Below, piece after piece: positions 9,880-19,505 of a DNA stretch of 36,619 bases. The notes under the pieces were generated by a model, which saw only the letters and a program-made list of their open reading frames with translations, did not search any database and was not told the DNA's origin. How positions within the stretch are numbered: position 1 is the first letter of the stretch; the number at the start of each line of letters is the position of its first letter. Source of the DNA: a virus; IMG/VR virus record IMGVR_UViG_3300042505_000272, positions 1-36,619 of that record; one strand, 5' to 3'. The position numbers and the translations under genes are program-made.

Positions 9880-10112
9880 TGACCAAAGACCAAATAACCA
9901 TTTGGTTAGAATGGGTTGGTACTGTTATTCTAATCTTAGGTACCGCAGTCAACAGTATGGGGTACTATCCCGTTGGTCCGATAATATTATGTGTGGGCGG
10001 TGCGTTCTGGCTAGCGGTTAGTATACGCTGGAATAAACCTAGTCTAGTTGTGGTTAACATTGTTATGATGATGACATCAATTGGTGGCATGCTTTGGAAA
10101 TATTTTGGTTGA
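9879..10112 (+). CDS. Small membrane protein (77 aa)
   Basis: The GTG start overlaps the previous stop by 1 nt. 77 residues with two or three hydrophobic segments: WVGTVILILGTAVNSMGYY (11-29), VGPIILCVGGAFWLAVSI (31-48) and LVVVNIVMMMTSIGGMLW (55-72). It is very probably an inner-membrane protein. Its last codons GGT TGA form part of the -35 box of the next promoter. Function is unknown; holin-like or superinfection roles are possible but not supported by further evidence. Confidence 0.65.
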   Translation: MTKDQITIWLEWVGTVILILGTAVNSMGYYPVGPIILCVGGAFWLAVSIRWNKPSLVVVNIVMMMTSIGGMLWKYFG

Positions 10113-10137
10113 CTTTTTGATTAAATGAGTCTATAAT
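10109..10137 (+). promoter_or_regulatory. Sigma70-type promoter overlapping a stop codon
   Basis: TTGACT (10109-10114), 17 nt, TATAAT (10132-10137). The TGA inside the -35 is the stop codon of the upstream membrane protein. It drives the zinc-finger gene at 10168. Confidence 0.88.
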
Positions 10138-10167
10138 AGTATTTGAAATTAATTAACAAGGAACACC

Positions 10168-11331: not shown

Positions 11332-11952
11332 ATGTCAACCTTAGTACCAATAGTAGTAGAACGCACCGCACAAGGTGAACGTAGTTATGACATTTATTCG
11401 CGTTTACTTAAAGATCGTATTGTTATGTTAGATACTGATGTCAACGAGCATACAGCCAGTTTGGTTGTAGCACAGATGCTGTTCTTAGAAGCAGAAAATT
11501 CAGAGCAGGATATCATGTTCTATATTAATAGTCCGGGTGGTAGTGTTACTGCTGGCCTAGCAATTTATGATACCATGCAGTTTATTCGTCCTGATATTCG
11601 TACTATTGTTATTGGACAGGCCTGTTCAATGGGCAGTTTCTTAGCACAAGCAGGTACAGCAGGTAAGCGTTTTGTTCTGCCAGAAAGCCGCACAATGATT
11701 CACCGTGTTAGCTCAGGTACTCCGGGTACACGTGGTAGCGTACACGTACAGGAACTACAGTTCGAAGATGCTATACGTAGCATGGGAGAAAGTAAACGCT
11801 TAAATGAACGCCTAACACAGTTGTATGTCAAGCACAACACTGCTGGTAAAACCTATGAAGAACTATACGAAACTATGAAGTTTGACACGTTCTTATCAGC
11901 AGAAGAAGCAGTGGCCTACGGTCTAGCAGACGAAGTGATTACTAAACGATAA
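11332..11952 (+). CDS. clpP: ATP-dependent Clp protease proteolytic subunit ClpP
   Basis: 206 residues, the normal length. It is the self-compartmentalising serine protease that degrades proteins fed to it by ClpX or ClpA. The triad is intact: Ser99 in GQACSMGSF, His124 in [10 protein letters not shown] and Asp185 in [17 protein letters not shown]. The handle and oxyanion region [20 protein letters not shown] is canonical. ACSMG replaces the usual AASMG. No Clp ATPase is encoded in this window, so it would have to use host ClpX/ClpA. A good AAGGAAA site precedes the ATG. Its stop overlaps the next ATG (TAATG). It may work with the phage tmRNA 3.3 kb downstream. Confidence 0.95.
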
Positions 11953-13145
11953 TGTTCTTTCACGTCAGTCACTCACATCAGGATAACTTTCCGCACAACT
12001 TTCAAGTTGACAACTTTGTTGTTAGTATGGACAACGGATGGACTCGTTACGCTGATGGAGTTTGGTTTAAAGGTTATCTCGATAGCGGGCTACTATTAGA
12101 TCATATAGACGATATATGCCAGGAACTTGAACCTAGTCGCACAGGTAACTTCTGTGTAATCAACTGTACAGAAGACGGTGTACGCATACACAGTGACCGT
12201 TTACGCAGTTTTCCTTTGTTTTATAGTCCTACACTAGGGCTTTCGAATTTACACAAGTTTGACGAAACAATTTGGACTGATTGCCTAGTTAGATTAAATC
12301 CGGACCTGTCTTTGAGCCGTGAATACTTTGATCCAATTGGTTCAATCGACACTAGTCCGTTGACCTTAGAACAAGTAGTAGAGCAAGTTGATCTTATATT
12401 AGATCGCAAAGCACAGACATTCTTGTCGCAGTTGTCAGACCCTATACGAGTATATCTAAGTGGCGGCATGGACACTGCCCTGCTGTTTTCCTATATCCAA
12501 AAACACGCAGAATACAAACTAGTGCTAAACAATCATGTAGACTATGATTACTTCTATCTAAAGAATCACGGAAAGATAGGACAGTTTTGGGGATATCATC
12601 AGATACATCATTGGAATGAACCATGTGTGCTGGCCAGTGGTGCGCCGGGTGATGAATTTACTCTACGCAGTCCCGTTACTAGTAATATGCTGTTATTACA
12701 CTATGGTACTAGTATTCCTAAACTGTTGGAAGAGAATACCAACTGTCTACACTATACCTATTTCAACCAACAGAAGTATCTAGATGCTTGGCATAAACAG
12801 CAAGATGAATATACTCACGTAGGACTAGCAGATACAATCAAAGTCTGCGCTAATTATAATGTTAACGATTGGCAACATTGGCATTTTGGTAATACTATTA
12901 CTTGGACACCTTTGCGAGATATCGAGATATTTAAATTAGTAGCTAGACTACAGCCCAATGATTTAATTAAACAGATTATGGACAGCGCACTACATAAACA
13001 ATTGATAGCTAAAAATAATCCAGATATATTGGGTTATTTGTCCGAGCAAAAGAATTCAACTACTTACTTGGAAAATCTAACAGCTCTGACACCTCTGGAC
13101 AATAGTCAACTAGATATGCGTTCTTGGCGCGATCTATTTTTGTAA
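11952..13145 (+). CDS. Asparagine-synthetase-like PP-loop ATPase
   Basis: 397 residues. SGGMDTALLF (170-179) in IRVYLSGGMDTALLFSYI is the adenylating PP-loop of AsnB-type enzymes (SGGxDS), and ASGAPGDEFTLRS corresponds to the second conserved G.GGDE block. Residues 1-120 look like a shortened glutaminase-type domain, with SDRLRSFPLFY as its equivalent of DR.G..PL.y. However, there is no Cys at position 2, so glutamine hydrolysis is unlikely. Such proteins form amides using ATP, including lasso- and graspetide-like or glycan-amidation relatives. The last 86 nt overlap the convergent radical SAM gene. It is coupled to clpP by a 1-nt overlap. Confidence 0.75.
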   Translation: MFFHVSHSHQDNFPHNFQVDNFVVSMDNGWTRYADGVWFKGYLDSGLLLDHIDDICQELEPSRTGNFCVINCTEDGVRIHSDRLRSFPLFYSPTLGLSNLHKFDETIWTDCLVRLNPDLSLSREYFDPIGSIDTSPLTLEQVVEQVDLILDRKAQTFLSQLSDPIRVYLSGGMDTALLFSYIQKHAEYKLVLNNHVDYDYFYLKNHGKIGQFWGYHQIHHWNEPCVLASGAPGDEFTLRSPVTSNMLLLHYGTSIPKLLEENTNCLHYTYFNQQKYLDAWHKQQDEYTHVGLADTIKVCANYNVNDWQHWHFGNTITWTPLRDIEIFKLVARLQPNDLIKQIMDSALHKQLIAKNNPDILGYLSEQKNSTTYLENLTALTPLDNSQLDMRSWRDLFL

Positions 13146-14202
13146 CATAATCCACAAATTTTTCGTGTAGTTCTCTGTTATATTTAACAGTATTAAGATT
13201 ATTAATGATAGCTGTAACAGCATTAACAGCATTGGATTTTTGATCTGATTCTATATTAGCCGAATCAAGCACAGTTAAACATTCCGCTAGTCTAGCAGTT
13301 AGCTTGGGTCGTAGACTTGTGGGAATCACAGCTTCTGTAAAGATATCTTCGGCAGCAATACCAAACGAAACAACCTTAGGCCAATCTTGAGCCAATAGAC
13401 TAACAACATCTAATAGATAGTAGTAATTGTAAACTGATGTAGTTATGTTTACTCTAACTTCAACGTGCGGTAGTTCTTTGCGCACATGATCAAAGTTACT
13501 TTGGACATCGGACCAAATTGTACCAAATCTAATATACTCGGCGGCATGGCCCACAGCATCTAAACTGTAGATCAAGGTAAACTTACGATCAGTATTAGCT
13601 AGTAGATCTGTTCGTAGGACTGACCCATTAGTAAACGCAGACAGGTCTGCTCGAGTGTTGGCTAAACTCCACTGCCAAAACTCCAAGCAACTTGGATCAT
13701 AGAATGGTTCACCACCAAGTACAATAATATTCTTCAGTCTATCTTTAACTGCTAGTAGTGAATCATACGGTGATGATGTATTCTTAACGTAGTCTTTAAA
13801 TGGGTCAGCTAGACCTGCTCGTTTGTAAAAGTCCGCTACTCTAGTACTAGCAGGTGTCCAACAGGTTTGGCAGGCAAAATTACATACATTACCCGGGCGG
13901 ATTTCTAAGGTTATATCATCTAGCGAGTAATTAGCATAGGCGCTAGCACCCCCTAAACGTATGCTGTCTGCTCGCCCTTGTTCTTCCACTACACGGCAAT
14001 CTTCACAGCCCTTAGGCCACACATTATCAGCTAATTGCTGGCGTGCCTGTACTAGATCTGGGTGTTGATGCCAGTTAACTATGCTGACCTTTTGTACGGT
14101 ATGATTGCTACGCCATTGATCGTCGCTACGCCACGTACAGCAGGGCTTTAAAAAGTCATGATATTGTAGGGCTATGCCGTTAGATAAAAATTTACATTCC
14201 AT
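13060..14202 (-). CDS. Radical SAM protein, twitch/SPASM-like
   Basis: 380 residues. The iron-sulfur motif CNFACQTC (Cys107, Cys111, Cys114; CX3CX2C) is followed by VLGGEPFYDP (161-170), the GGE motif for S-adenosylmethionine. Further up, LKPCCTWRSDD (18-28) and GCEDCRVVEEQGRADS (65-80) supply four more Cys, as in SPASM/twitch proteins that carry an auxiliary cluster, here placed at the N-terminus. The substrate could be a peptide or small molecule. The ATG lacks a Shine-Dalgarno, but CATAAGTAT, near the late motif, lies 8-16 nt upstream. It overlaps the PP-loop gene tail-to-tail by 86 nt. Confidence 0.85.
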   Translation of the reverse strand: MECKFLSNGIALQYHDFLKPCCTWRSDDQWRSNHTVQKVSIVNWHQHPDLVQARQQLADNVWPKGCEDCRVVEEQGRADSIRLGGASAYANYSLDDITLEIRPGNVCNFACQTCWTPASTRVADFYKRAGLADPFKDYVKNTSSPYDSLLAVKDRLKNIIVLGGEPFYDPSCLEFWQWSLANTRADLSAFTNGSVLRTDLLANTDRKFTLIYSLDAVGHAAEYIRFGTIWSDVQSNFDHVRKELPHVEVRVNITTSVYNYYYLLDVVSLLAQDWPKVVSFGIAAEDIFTEAVIPTSLRPKLTARLAECLTVLDSANIESDQKSNAVNAVTAIINNLNTVKYNRELHEKFVDYVTKIDRAKNAYLVDYCPEVSELLDFPSK

Positions 14203-14995: not shown

Positions 14996-15238
14996 ATGTT
15001 AGCACGTAGTTTAGTATTCGTAGCACTTTTAGCAGTAGGAGTAGCACAGGCAGATGAACCGAGCAATGTTGTTAATCAACATCAACTAGCTAAACGTTCG
15101 TATGCGGCACCTGTTAAAGAGAAAGAAGTTCTTGAAGGTGCTAGTGTAACAGAAGAAGTAGTGGTTGATAAAAAACATCAGACGTTGCGTTTACACATGT
15201 TAGGTAAACTTCCTTACATGGAAAAGGCAACTGATTAA
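14996..15238 (+). CDS. Small exported protein (80 aa)
   Basis: A strong ribosome site AGAGGAGAAA precedes the ATG. 80 residues with a clear signal peptide: MLARSLVFVALLAVGVAQA, cleavage after AQA, mature part from DEPSNVVNQHQL. The mature protein is about 61 residues, hydrophilic and Lys/Glu-rich. No family is recognised. It would act in the periplasm or envelope. The permuted tmRNA begins immediately after its stop, with no terminator between, so both are probably made from the same transcript. Confidence 0.7.
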   Translation: MLARSLVFVALLAVGVAQADEPSNVVNQHQLAKRSYAAPVKEKEVLEGASVTEEVVVDKKHQTLRLHMLGKLPYMEKATD

Positions 15239-15240
15239 AG

Positions 15241-15306
15241 AAATTGTTGTATAACTCTTAAAGTAAGGCATGTTGGACGGCGGTTCGATTCCGCCCATCT
15301 CCACCA
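15241..15306 (+). ncRNA. ssrA: tmRNA acceptor piece
   Basis: Contains the 3' strand of P2, the T-stem GGCGG/CCGCC with loop TTCGATT, the 3' acceptor strand CATCTCC, discriminator A and an encoded CCA (15304-15306). The mature 5' end is unknown and may lie a little downstream of 15241. Confidence 0.85.
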
Positions 15307-15364
15307 TAAACATATTGAACTCGACCAGGCAATTGAAGCCAAAATCTCGTAGTATGTTTATGCC
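15307..15364 (+). other. Intervening segment of permuted tmRNA with closing stem
   Basis: TAAACATA (15307-15314) directly after the CCA pairs with TATGTTTA (15353-15360), four nt before the coding piece. This 8-bp stem brings the two mature ends together in the precursor and would be removed during processing. Confidence 0.75.
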
Positions 15365-15575
15365 GGGGATGACCAGGTTTCGACAGCGTGAGATAGGATA
15401 AAGGGCAACACGTGGGGTCACGTAAAATACAAAAATCGTAAATGCAAACGCAAATACAAAAGACGTAGTTAAAGTATCTATGGGTCGTGGCTTCCGCTTC
15501 GCTCGTGGTACAGAAGCTGTAGCAGCCTAAAAACTGCTCGTCCGGGGTAGCTATACCTTGTTACCAAAACTAGTA
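15365..15575 (+). ncRNA. ssrA: tmRNA coding piece
   Basis: Starts with the 5' acceptor strand and the D-like segment GACCAGGTTTCGACAG. It then runs through the PK1-like stem, an A-rich single-stranded stretch (AAAATACAAAAATCG), the tag frame (15444-15530) and a downstream stem region (GGTAGCTATACC). The 3' end is placed just before the terminator hairpin and is uncertain. Confidence 0.85.
15444..15530 (+). other. tmRNA tag-peptide reading frame (28 codons + TAA)
   Basis: The resume codon GCA at 15444 is preceded by GTAAAT, keeping U at -5 and A at -4, which are conserved before tmRNA resume codons. The tag begins ANANTKDVVK, contains MGRGFRFARG and ends TEAVAA. The usual tag is about 8-15 residues ending (A/L)LAA, so this one is unusually long and basic. 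The AVAA end is still a plausible ClpXP/ClpAP signal. Confidence 0.7.
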
Positions 15576-15601
15576 GAAAGCACCTTCGGGTGCTTTCTTT
15601 T
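15576..15601 (+). terminator. Rho-independent terminator after tmRNA
   Basis: GAAAGCACC (15576-15584), loop TTCG, GGTGCTTTC (15589-15597), then TTTT: a 9-bp stem with a UUCG tetraloop. Confidence 0.92.
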
Positions 15602-15625
15602 GTCTGGTATTTCTAGCAGTATATT

Positions 15626-15647: not shown

Positions 15648-15710
15648 CACGAGTACTATGCTATAATATTTGCGTGGCACAAACAACAAAATATGTCATA
15701 CAAATTTTAG

Positions 15711-15738
15711 TTGACTTTTTAGTAAAAGAGTGTATAAT
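15711..15738 (+). promoter_or_regulatory. Sigma70-type promoter
   Basis: TTGACT (15711-15716), 16 nt, TATAAT (15733-15738). It drives the ParB-like gene at 15774. A further TATAAT at 15662 upstream has only a poor -35 (TTTGTG). Confidence 0.85.
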
Positions 15739-15773
15739 AGCACTTGTAAGTTAATTATCAACCAAGGAGAAAT

Positions 15774-16982
15774 ATGGCTTTTCCTAATAAAGATCCTAAA
15801 GAAATTTACGGACAAGACTTAATTAAAGTGTTTGGACCACAAGCACAACGTAGACATATTAGTACACTGTCTCCTCAAGAAAAGCAGACTATTTTAAATA
15901 ATGTACCTGATTATGTTGAGACCGACGACTTGGGCGATAGACCTAGCTTTTTTCAAATTACTAATAAAATTTTGTGGATACTACAGCAAACACAGGCTTT
16001 AAATGGCATTGACTTGGATTGGTGTCCATCATTAGCCAATCGAGCTATGTGTAGACATCCAGATCATTACTTCTCAGTAAGTAAGGCATATAAAAATAAT
16101 TCCGTACAACGTGGTATTTGGCTACGTCACTTACTAGGCGATATCCTATTCCAATTTGATCCAAATCATGTACTCATGGGTCTAGCACGTAAACTAAGTG
16201 ATGGTACAGCTAACTTAAATAACGGGCAACATCGTACAGTAGGTTGTATTATTATGGGTATTAGAGAAGTACCCATTGAATGGCAAGAAAGTGATTTAGA
16301 AAGTGTTGATGTAGACTTATATGCTACAGACAATCTGCACACACTTTCGGCTAGTCCGTTTGATGAATATCGCATCCAAGTACGTAGAAATCAAGTGCGT
16401 AAAGCAGAAGGACGTACAGATCTTATCGAAGATGATGTTAAATGTGAACATATTTTTGACATACATGCTCGGTACGGTAGTCGATTTGTAGAGAAAGGCC
16501 AAGAAGAAACTCTACCACGTGAGTGTACAGGTGTTGGTAATATGATCAACTATTACGATACTTACGGAGCAGATATCTATGAACGTGCGGTGAGCATTGT
16601 ATGTTCTGTTTTTTCTAAATCATCATTTGCCACCGGTAATGCTTGGGGATTAATGGAATTTTTACGTGAGCAATCTAATAATGGTAGTTGGGAATCACCG
16701 GCAGAATTAGATTGGGCCGTTCAACAAGCAATACTATACAAATATAGTGATAGCAGAAAGAATGGTATGCATCTTGATATTAAAAAAGCATTTAAAGATT
16801 TCTTAGACCATTCTAATAGAGCAAACGTGTATATGGATTGTCCAGAGCCACGTAGAATTGCCGCAGGAATTCTTAAATTGTGTAAAATAACTAGCCCAGA
16901 ATTAACTTGGGCTCCGATTAACTATCAAGGTAAAGATGTGTTAGACGCACTCAAATCGTTCTTTGTAATGCCTAAGGCCTAA
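15774..16982 (+). CDS. ParB-like nuclease-domain protein
   Basis: 402 residues; AAGGAGAAAT precedes the ATG. The block KLSDGTANLNNGQHRTVGCI (140-159) contains the NGQHR motif of ParB/Srx-like domains, where NG.HR binds nucleotide or acts in DNA cleavage. The following residues (GIREVPIEWQESDLESVDVD) fit the domain's strands. The C-terminal ~200 residues are helical and unassigned, with CEHIFDIHARYGSRFVEKG and a WGLMEFLREQ helix. Phage ParB-like proteins of this kind are common and largely uncharacterised; roles in DNA degradation, modification or regulation are suggested. The HNH gene follows after 1 nt. Confidence 0.7.
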   Translation: MAFPNKDPKEIYGQDLIKVFGPQAQRRHISTLSPQEKQTILNNVPDYVETDDLGDRPSFFQITNKILWILQQTQALNGIDLDWCPSLANRAMCRHPDHYFSVSKAYKNNSVQRGIWLRHLLGDILFQFDPNHVLMGLARKLSDGTANLNNGQHRTVGCIIMGIREVPIEWQESDLESVDVDLYATDNLHTLSASPFDEYRIQVRRNQVRKAEGRTDLIEDDVKCEHIFDIHARYGSRFVEKGQEETLPRECTGVGNMINYYDTYGADIYERAVSIVCSVFSKSSFATGNAWGLMEFLREQSNNGSWESPAELDWAVQQAILYKYSDSRKNGMHLDIKKAFKDFLDHSNRANVYMDCPEPRRIAAGILKLCKITSPELTWAPINYQGKDVLDALKSFFVMPKA

Positions 16983-17594: not shown

Positions 17595-17888
17595 ATGAAA
17601 TTAAATCCTCTACACGACCGTGTGGTTGTTAAACGTATCGAAGCCGATACAAAAACAAGCTCAGGTCTTATTATCCCCGACAATGCTGCAGAAAAGCCAG
17701 ACCAAGGTGTTGTTCTAGCTGTAGGCCTAGGCCGCCGCACAGAAGCAGGCACACTTGTACCAATGTCAGTTAAAGAAAACGACCGAGTGTTATTTGGCAA
17801 ACACGCTGGGCAGATTGTTAAGATTAATGGTGAAGAAGTATTGGTCTTAACAGAAGAAGAAATTTATGCAGTTATTGAGGAGAACTAA
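17595..17888 (+). CDS. groES: Co-chaperonin GroES
   Basis: 97 residues, full length. It caps GroEL to form the folding chamber. [16 protein letters not shown] at the start and [16 protein letters not shown] in the mobile loop region are canonical bacterial GroES; the [17 protein letters not shown] wording is close to betaproteobacterial GroES. GAGTAAAA with AAAGGAG lies upstream of the ATG. groEL follows after 3 nt, so this is a normal groESL operon. It differs from the divergent phage co-chaperonins such as T4 gp31, which suggests recent acquisition from a host. Confidence 0.96.

Positions 17889-19505
<1,617 letters not shown>

Follow-up and report, generated by a model that had tools for sequence, protein, structure and literature searches.

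A beta-type permuted tmRNA gene in a phage contig with a long tag that carries a conserved core

The tags added by tmRNAs are usually regarded as short degrons for the Clp proteases of the host. In the tmRNA database of 2025, which lists 79 unique tmRNA sequences from phages, all forms included, the commonest tag length is 10 aa (PMC11915505). Permuted tmRNA genes are already known from phages and are common there; a 2021 survey suggests that 53 of 133 unique phage tmRNAs have a two-piece structure and describes a two-piece tmRNA in the methylophage Melnitz (PMC9004378). The view of the earlier note on the present DNA that a phage copy is unusual cannot be maintained, since such genes have been published in phages and about 209 permuted tmRNA loci were obtained from viral contigs in two scans that were blind to the tag. 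The new part of the locus described here is its long, core-bearing tag.

With the betaproteobacterial permuted tmRNA (RF01850; merged family RF04321), whose RF01850 model is the best match to the locus among the older models, the gene shares the permuted order, the pairing of the tRNA-like domain (TLD), the resume context and the 3′ region, but it is phage-borne, has a tag of 28 aa with a core instead of about 10 aa, and has a longer intervening segment (58 nt). Melnitz, the pelagimyophages and other aquatic phages likewise carry a complete permuted ssrA gene in a large aquatic phage; however, the ssrA gene of Melnitz falls among the tmRNAs of alphaproteobacteria and has a glutamine riboswitch linked to it, whereas the present gene is of the beta type and no riboswitch match was obtained in the contig with Rfam, and a long tag is not reported in the accessible part of the Melnitz paper (PMC9004378). 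The tmRNA and SmpB sets of huge phages (PMC7162821) are similar in that a large phage carries translation-rescue genes, but none of the 25 viral records searched here gave a match to SmpB, which the host would have to supply. A small hydrophobic C-terminal end is shared with the E. coli ssrA tag that is served by ClpXP and ClpAP, and ClpP together with a ClpA-like unfoldase is available in both cases; unlike the E. coli tag, the phage tag, as translated from the gene, lacks the AND segment of standard tags and has the core added, and the unfoldase and the peptidase are encoded by the phage family.

The window, that is, the whole IMG/VR contig of 36,619 bases that was analysed, is a viral record with tail and virion genes, and its features are collected in Table 1. 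The permuted tmRNA that the earlier note had read from the letters is recovered by both Rfam covariance models and by ARAGORN. RF04321 (tmRNA_permuted) matches 15245-15530 with 120.5 bits (E 3.3e-23, gathering score 47) and RF01850 (beta_tmRNA) matches 15200-15600 with 104 bits (E 8.7e-31, gathering score 84), which far exceeds chance, and ARAGORN independently places a permuted tmRNA at 15214-15621 with the tag frame at 15444-15530. The Rfam search that the note had proposed as a check thus gave gathering-level matches that cover both pieces. The T-arm, the 3′ strand of the acceptor stem and the encoded CCA (15279-15306) lie ahead of the 5′ strand (15365-15371), all 7 of the 7 acceptor pairs, including the alanine identity pair G3-U70, can be read from the sequence, P2 is closed across the permutation by GUUG (15246-15249) and CAAC (15406-15409), and the PK1-like stem pairs ACGUG with CACGU; on each of these elements, and on the phage origin of the gene, the earlier note was right. 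The resume context GUAAAUGCAAAC is placed by the RF04321 alignment. In the folded precursor, the hairpin of the intervening segment, the length of which ranges from 26 to 194 nt across relatives, stacks on the acceptor stem. Position 15365 is predicted to be the 5′-end of the mRNA-like piece made by RNase P, and of the two predicted piece ends, 15306 coincides exactly with the end of the CCA and 15365 with the first G of the acceptor stem. The TLD, the permutation, the resume codon, the 28-codon tag frame, the stop codon and the terminator are evident in the sequence; the two-piece state of the RNA is inferred from the gene order, without RNA data.

Table 1. Features of the window that bear on the permuted tmRNA gene and its neighbourhood
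Feature	Position	Strand	Basis
Permuted tmRNA gene (ssrA), beta type	15245..15600	+	RF04321, RF01850, ARAGORN tmRNA*
T-arm GGCGG-TTCGATT-CCGCC	15279..15295	+	Sequence; RF04321 alignment; T-stem variable but still paired in relatives
Acceptor stem 3′ strand CATCTCC, partner of 15365-15371	15296..15302	+	Sequence, covariation, fold
Discriminator A and encoded CCA, predicted 3′ end of acceptor piece	15303..15306	+	Sequence
Intervening segment, 58 nt, hairpin UAAACAUA...UAUGUUUA	15307..15364	+	Fold; expected removal in maturation
Acceptor stem 5′ strand GGGGATG with G3	15365..15371	+	Sequence; RF04321
PK1-like stem ACGUG-GGGU-CACGU	15410..15423	+	Fold; RF04321 alignment
Tag reading frame, resume codon GCA (15444) to TAA (15528-15530)	15444..15530	+	ARAGORN; RF04321
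Conserved tag core KVSMGRGFRF	15471..15500	+	Amino acids fixed, third bases variable
3′ pseudoknot region after the tag	15531..15574	+	RF01850 alignment
Intrinsic terminator, closing the tmRNA gene	15575..15598	+	
80-aa ORF, signal-peptide-like start, directly upstream of the tmRNA	14996..15238	+	
Phage ClpP	11332..11952	+	PF00574 212 bits; NCBIfam NF001368 252 bits against a cut-off of 249
Phage GroES	17595..17888	+	NCBIfam NF001527 130 bits
Phage GroEL	17892..19505	+	NCBIfam GroEL 799-839 bits; PHROG chaperonin

Seven forms of the acceptor 5′ strand (GGGGATG, GGGCCTG, GGGGGTG, GGGCCAG, GTGGCGG, GGGGTCG and GGGCTCG) occur in the 23 resolved long-tag genes, each with a matching 3′ strand and every one with G3-U70, as the earlier note had noticed for the window gene. 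On this comparative evidence, the TLDs of long-tag genes are functional and under selection.

Several relatives have variant tmRNA genes. A close relative of the window phage (L042, positions 1-1086) harbors a tandem permuted tmRNA, in which the first gene is broken just after the 5′ TLD by a GIY-YIG endonuclease-like gene (214-819) and a second full TLD copy, with the tag ANDEVFALAA, follows the endonuclease gene; this looks like the insertion of a homing endonuclease into a tmRNA. In L050, L288, L062, L268 and L272, a small ORF is nested within the intervening segment; it encodes about 34-41 aa, in many cases hydrophobic, and its stop codon frequently extends into the beginning of the mRNA-like piece. 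The T-loop TTCGANT is replaced by GGCAGAA (L051), which is common to four contigs, or by GGCAGCG (L291) in permuted tmRNAs that are otherwise intact. No CCA is encoded after the discriminator in L043, L063, L042, L275 and L291 (ACTG, ACTA, ACCT), so that CCA addition by the host would be needed for some phage tmRNAs.

The most distinctive part of the gene, the tag ANANTKDVVKVSMGRGFRFARGTEAVAA, had not been remarked on in the earlier note. With 28 aa it is about three times as long as usual and fails the criteria of an ordinary ssrA tag (AND...ALAA, about 10 aa), and inside its permuted-tmRNA frame it contains the core KVxxx[RK]GFRF. A strict search with a degenerate VSMGRGFRF pattern gave 25 viral contigs, in 24 of which the match lies within a permuted tmRNA gene, the remaining one being a chance match; with a relaxed core pattern, all 39 matching viral contigs had the match within such a gene. 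The consensus of the core tags, which are 28-33 aa long, is [VA]KVxxx[RK]GFRF[AG], flanked by variable N-terminal (AK/AN..ST..) and C-terminal (AVAA, ALAA, AAFA, ATFA, AVLA) parts. The KVSMGRGFRF pattern had no match in 84,980 bacterial and archaeal species genomes, and the tag was absent from INPHARED phages and PLSDB plasmids.

Because the fixed amino acids of the core were part of the search pattern, it is the silent variation, and not the fixity, that is informative. In 17 distinct core DNA sequences, the codons for K, V, G, F, R and F change at third positions only, so that it is the peptide that has been conserved. No other stretch of the 5′ piece is as well conserved as the core, and the flanks, T-arms and intervening segments of core-tag genes vary freely; silent changes within the core while the rest of the gene diverges demonstrate, at the level of sequence comparison, that the core is under selection as a peptide. 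The possibility that the core is an RNA element was rejected on the basis of the same third-base changes; a contribution of RNA structure to its conservation is not excluded, and the predicted minimum-free-energy fold assigns some of the core to a stem. The idea that the core mimics a phage protein was also rejected, as KVxxx[RK]G[FYW] and [KR]GFRF were found only in tags in about 3 Mb of loci. A core scan with two mismatches allowed, in 17 phage records, likewise found tags only, apart from one unrelated site in two records.

Because these searches had used the core itself, IMG/VR was scanned twice with T-arm sequence alone, giving 106 and 103 permuted tmRNAs; these two scans and a ClpP scan, all blind to the tag, served as the check on ascertainment by motif search. 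Tag length in the T-arm scans is bimodal (8-15 and 23-33 aa), with a gap at 16-22 aa that is interrupted only by two 21-aa calls, probably misreadings of ANDERFALAA by ARAGORN, and most phage permuted tmRNAs have ordinary 10-aa tags. The long tags of the first scan have either the exact KVSMGRGFRF (12 loci) or the core FDFSAMSFTGNTV (4 loci) of a second family, FTGNTV, whose tags of 26-31 aa were found in L073, L108, L151, L441, L442, L444 and about 20 more loci. The second scan adds tags of the TFEYFxV type, a third group of 23-27 aa, and intermediates of the window family, for example VKVTMGKNFRFG (L518). As several long-tag families emerge from tag-blind scans, long tags are, to judge from the genes, a general phenomenon among phages.

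ClpP is encoded in all 17 strict-core records, about 1-5 kb from the tmRNA; of another 21 core-tag records, 12 have it and the rest are pieces of 6-57 kb. A ClpA-like protein of about 770 aa, with Clp_N, AAA, AAA_2 and ClpB_D2-small domains and an IGF loop for docking to ClpP, is present in all seven core-tag records that reach 110 kb or more, and also in G009; in 50 other tmRNA phages, no ClpA of about 770 aa was found and the ClpP matches were weaker (118 bits or less). The tag-blind ClpP scan revealed many ClpP phages, some of them with ClpA, that have short tags or no tmRNA that could be found. ClpAP as an obligatory partner of the core was rejected on this account, and since related phages encode ClpA and ClpP although their tags are short or no tmRNA was found, phage ClpAP does not require the core.

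When 736 ORFs from two core-tag phages were searched, DnaK was the sole family that occurred in four of four core-tag genomes while being absent from all three short-tag ClpP phages. DnaK was found in ten more core-tag records and lies 32-47 kb upstream of the tmRNA in most of them; no core-tag record that extends 35 kb or more upstream of its tmRNA lacks it, and those without it have less than about 35 kb there. Among 27 other records it was found only in G081, whose tag is another long one, and the FTGNTV-tag phages G063, L442 and L487 also have it. In records of at least 80 kb, DnaK is encoded by 13 of 15 with long tags and by none of 12 with short tags (Fisher p 6e-6, kinship ignored); the two long-tag records without it have less than 27 kb of upstream sequence. 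Exceptions are L485, which has a short tag and DnaK, and L246, which has DnaK but showed no tmRNA over 45 kb. The core label requires three changes on a ClpP tree, and the core-tag phages are related to each other; for the core and DnaK the tree offers only two independent contrasts, both in the same direction, so that significance is out of reach, and the link between DnaK and long tags is, at the level of gene content, a lead and not a proof. The jumbo-size phages G010 (329 kb) and G016 (219 kb) and their relatives have DnaK, GroEL/ES, ClpA and ClpP together, which from their annotated genes is nearly the whole bacterial proteostasis set.

In the 36.6 kb of the window itself, no DnaK and no ClpA were found. 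Its ClpP falls below the equivalog cut-off of TIGR00493 and reaches only 83 bits against 120 for the head-protease model, and by these profile scores it belongs to the ClpP family and is not a head maturation protease. A second contig, of 46 kb, contains an identical sequence, and a counterpart of the 80-aa ORF lies upstream of the tmRNA in L041. A Twitch-domain radical SAM protein (NF033640, 186 bits), with weak similarity to the prokaryotic viperin model, is encoded at 13060-14202 on the minus strand. The stretch at 15701-15774, before the gene for a neighbouring 402-aa protein that has no relatives in isolated phages, is repeated at 10102-10159 with about 83% identity and also occurs in relatives, and it represents a repeated, promoter-like family (TTGACT-16-TATAAT) in the window and its relatives. 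The permuted layout is shared by the genomes of six Herbaspirillum and one Duganella (Oxalobacteraceae) and by two other records, of which L425 was called a standard-form tmRNA and L432 a tRNA-Ala; in the Oxalobacteraceae, most tags have about 11 aa with GT as the last residues, and the phage tag differs. The host clue that the earlier note saw in the permutation therefore holds moderately, in that the gene is of the beta type and the matching bacteria are mostly Herbaspirillum and Duganella, but the host is not shown; for this large freshwater phage, a host in the Burkholderiales is likely.

The locus is probably best explained as a working permuted tmRNA that uses the SmpB of the host and adds a tag with a selected recognition site, probably for chaperone or protease machinery of the phage; this can be proposed with reasonable confidence, in the absence of RNA, tagging and binding data. 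From what is known of tmRNAs, host RNase P and 3′ processing would split the transcript into two pieces joined by base pairing, host alanyl-tRNA synthetase would charge the CCA end through G3-U70, host SmpB and EF-Tu would, during infection, carry the tmRNA to ribosomes that have stalled on broken mRNAs, and the nascent chain would be released bearing the tag. It is inferred that the tag is more than a C-terminal Clp degron and that KVxxx[RK]GFRF was added as a recognition site. Its likeliest readers may be phage-encoded, namely the ClpA-like unfoldase with ClpP, phage DnaK, or both, and the phage would then rescue ribosomes and route the released chains to its own chaperone and protease set. 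The -AVAA end can still serve as a Clp signal, and degradation by host Clp may remain the end point. A further-reaching proposal, that trans-translation has been re-coded so that the long-tag core is an address for phage DnaK, GroEL/ES and ClpA-ClpP and not for host machines, with the long-tag families as parallel addresses, is only tentative.

It is also conceivable, though rather unlikely, that the gene is an ordinary phage permuted tmRNA whose tag is a degron for host ClpXP or ClpAP and whose long insert is neutral or clade-specific and has no partner. The C-terminal AVAA or ALAA is indeed retained in many tags, most phage permuted tmRNAs have 10-aa tags, and the core-tag phages are kin; however, the core positions change only silently while the rest of the gene diverges, tag length is bimodal with its gap at 16-22 aa, and some tags end in ATFA, AAFA or AVLA, so that the degron end is more variable than the core. 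A fixed basic and aromatic core followed by a variable tail would also be compatible with a peptide that arrests or slows the ribosome from within, regulating translation or tmRNA turnover without tagging for a partner, and no partner has been shown; this seems improbable, because no likeness to a known arrest motif has been established and a strong arrest would defeat rescue. The view that the locus is no functional tmRNA but a tRNA-like sequence that has decayed or arisen by chance has nothing in its favour beyond the lack of RNA data, and it deserves almost no credence: it is already contradicted by the compensatory changes in the acceptor stem, and gathering-level matches to two models, open tag frames with silent core changes and the terminator speak against it as well.

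More specifically, the recognition site may be an Hsp70 site, through which phage DnaK with GroEL/ES would capture the tagged, unfinished chains and keep them soluble or pass them to ClpAP. DnaK sites tend to be hydrophobic and basic, and the core is both. DnaK is, moreover, the only family that separates the four core-tag from the three short-tag ClpP genomes, its excess in long-tag records of at least 80 kb (uncorrected for kinship) points the same way, and other long-tag phages (FTGNTV; G081) have it too. Against this stand the exceptions L485 and L246, the limitation to two independent contrasts, a pattern that shared ancestry could also yield, and the sequences of the other long-tag families: the FTGNTV and TFEYF tags differ from the core and are neutral or, in some cases, acidic, which strains a single explanation by DnaK binding. 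The Hsp70 form thus remains a possibility that cannot yet be called probable.

For the preferred reading, a working tmRNA whose tag bears a selected recognition site, the results suggest that in core-bearing phages the rescue system has come to send tagged proteins to a new destination. A selected core that is unseen in the searched bacterial genomes, together with phage-encoded ClpA, ClpP, DnaK and GroEL/ES, makes it a testable question whether a virus can redirect the fate of stalled nascent chains. The diversity of virus-encoded tmRNA tags is suggested to be much above that of the bacterial set, and the long phage tags are new candidates for orthogonal degrons or chaperone tags. If the further-reaching proposal of a re-coded trans-translation is true, proteins from stalled ribosomes would be handled by the machines of the phage instead of those of the host.
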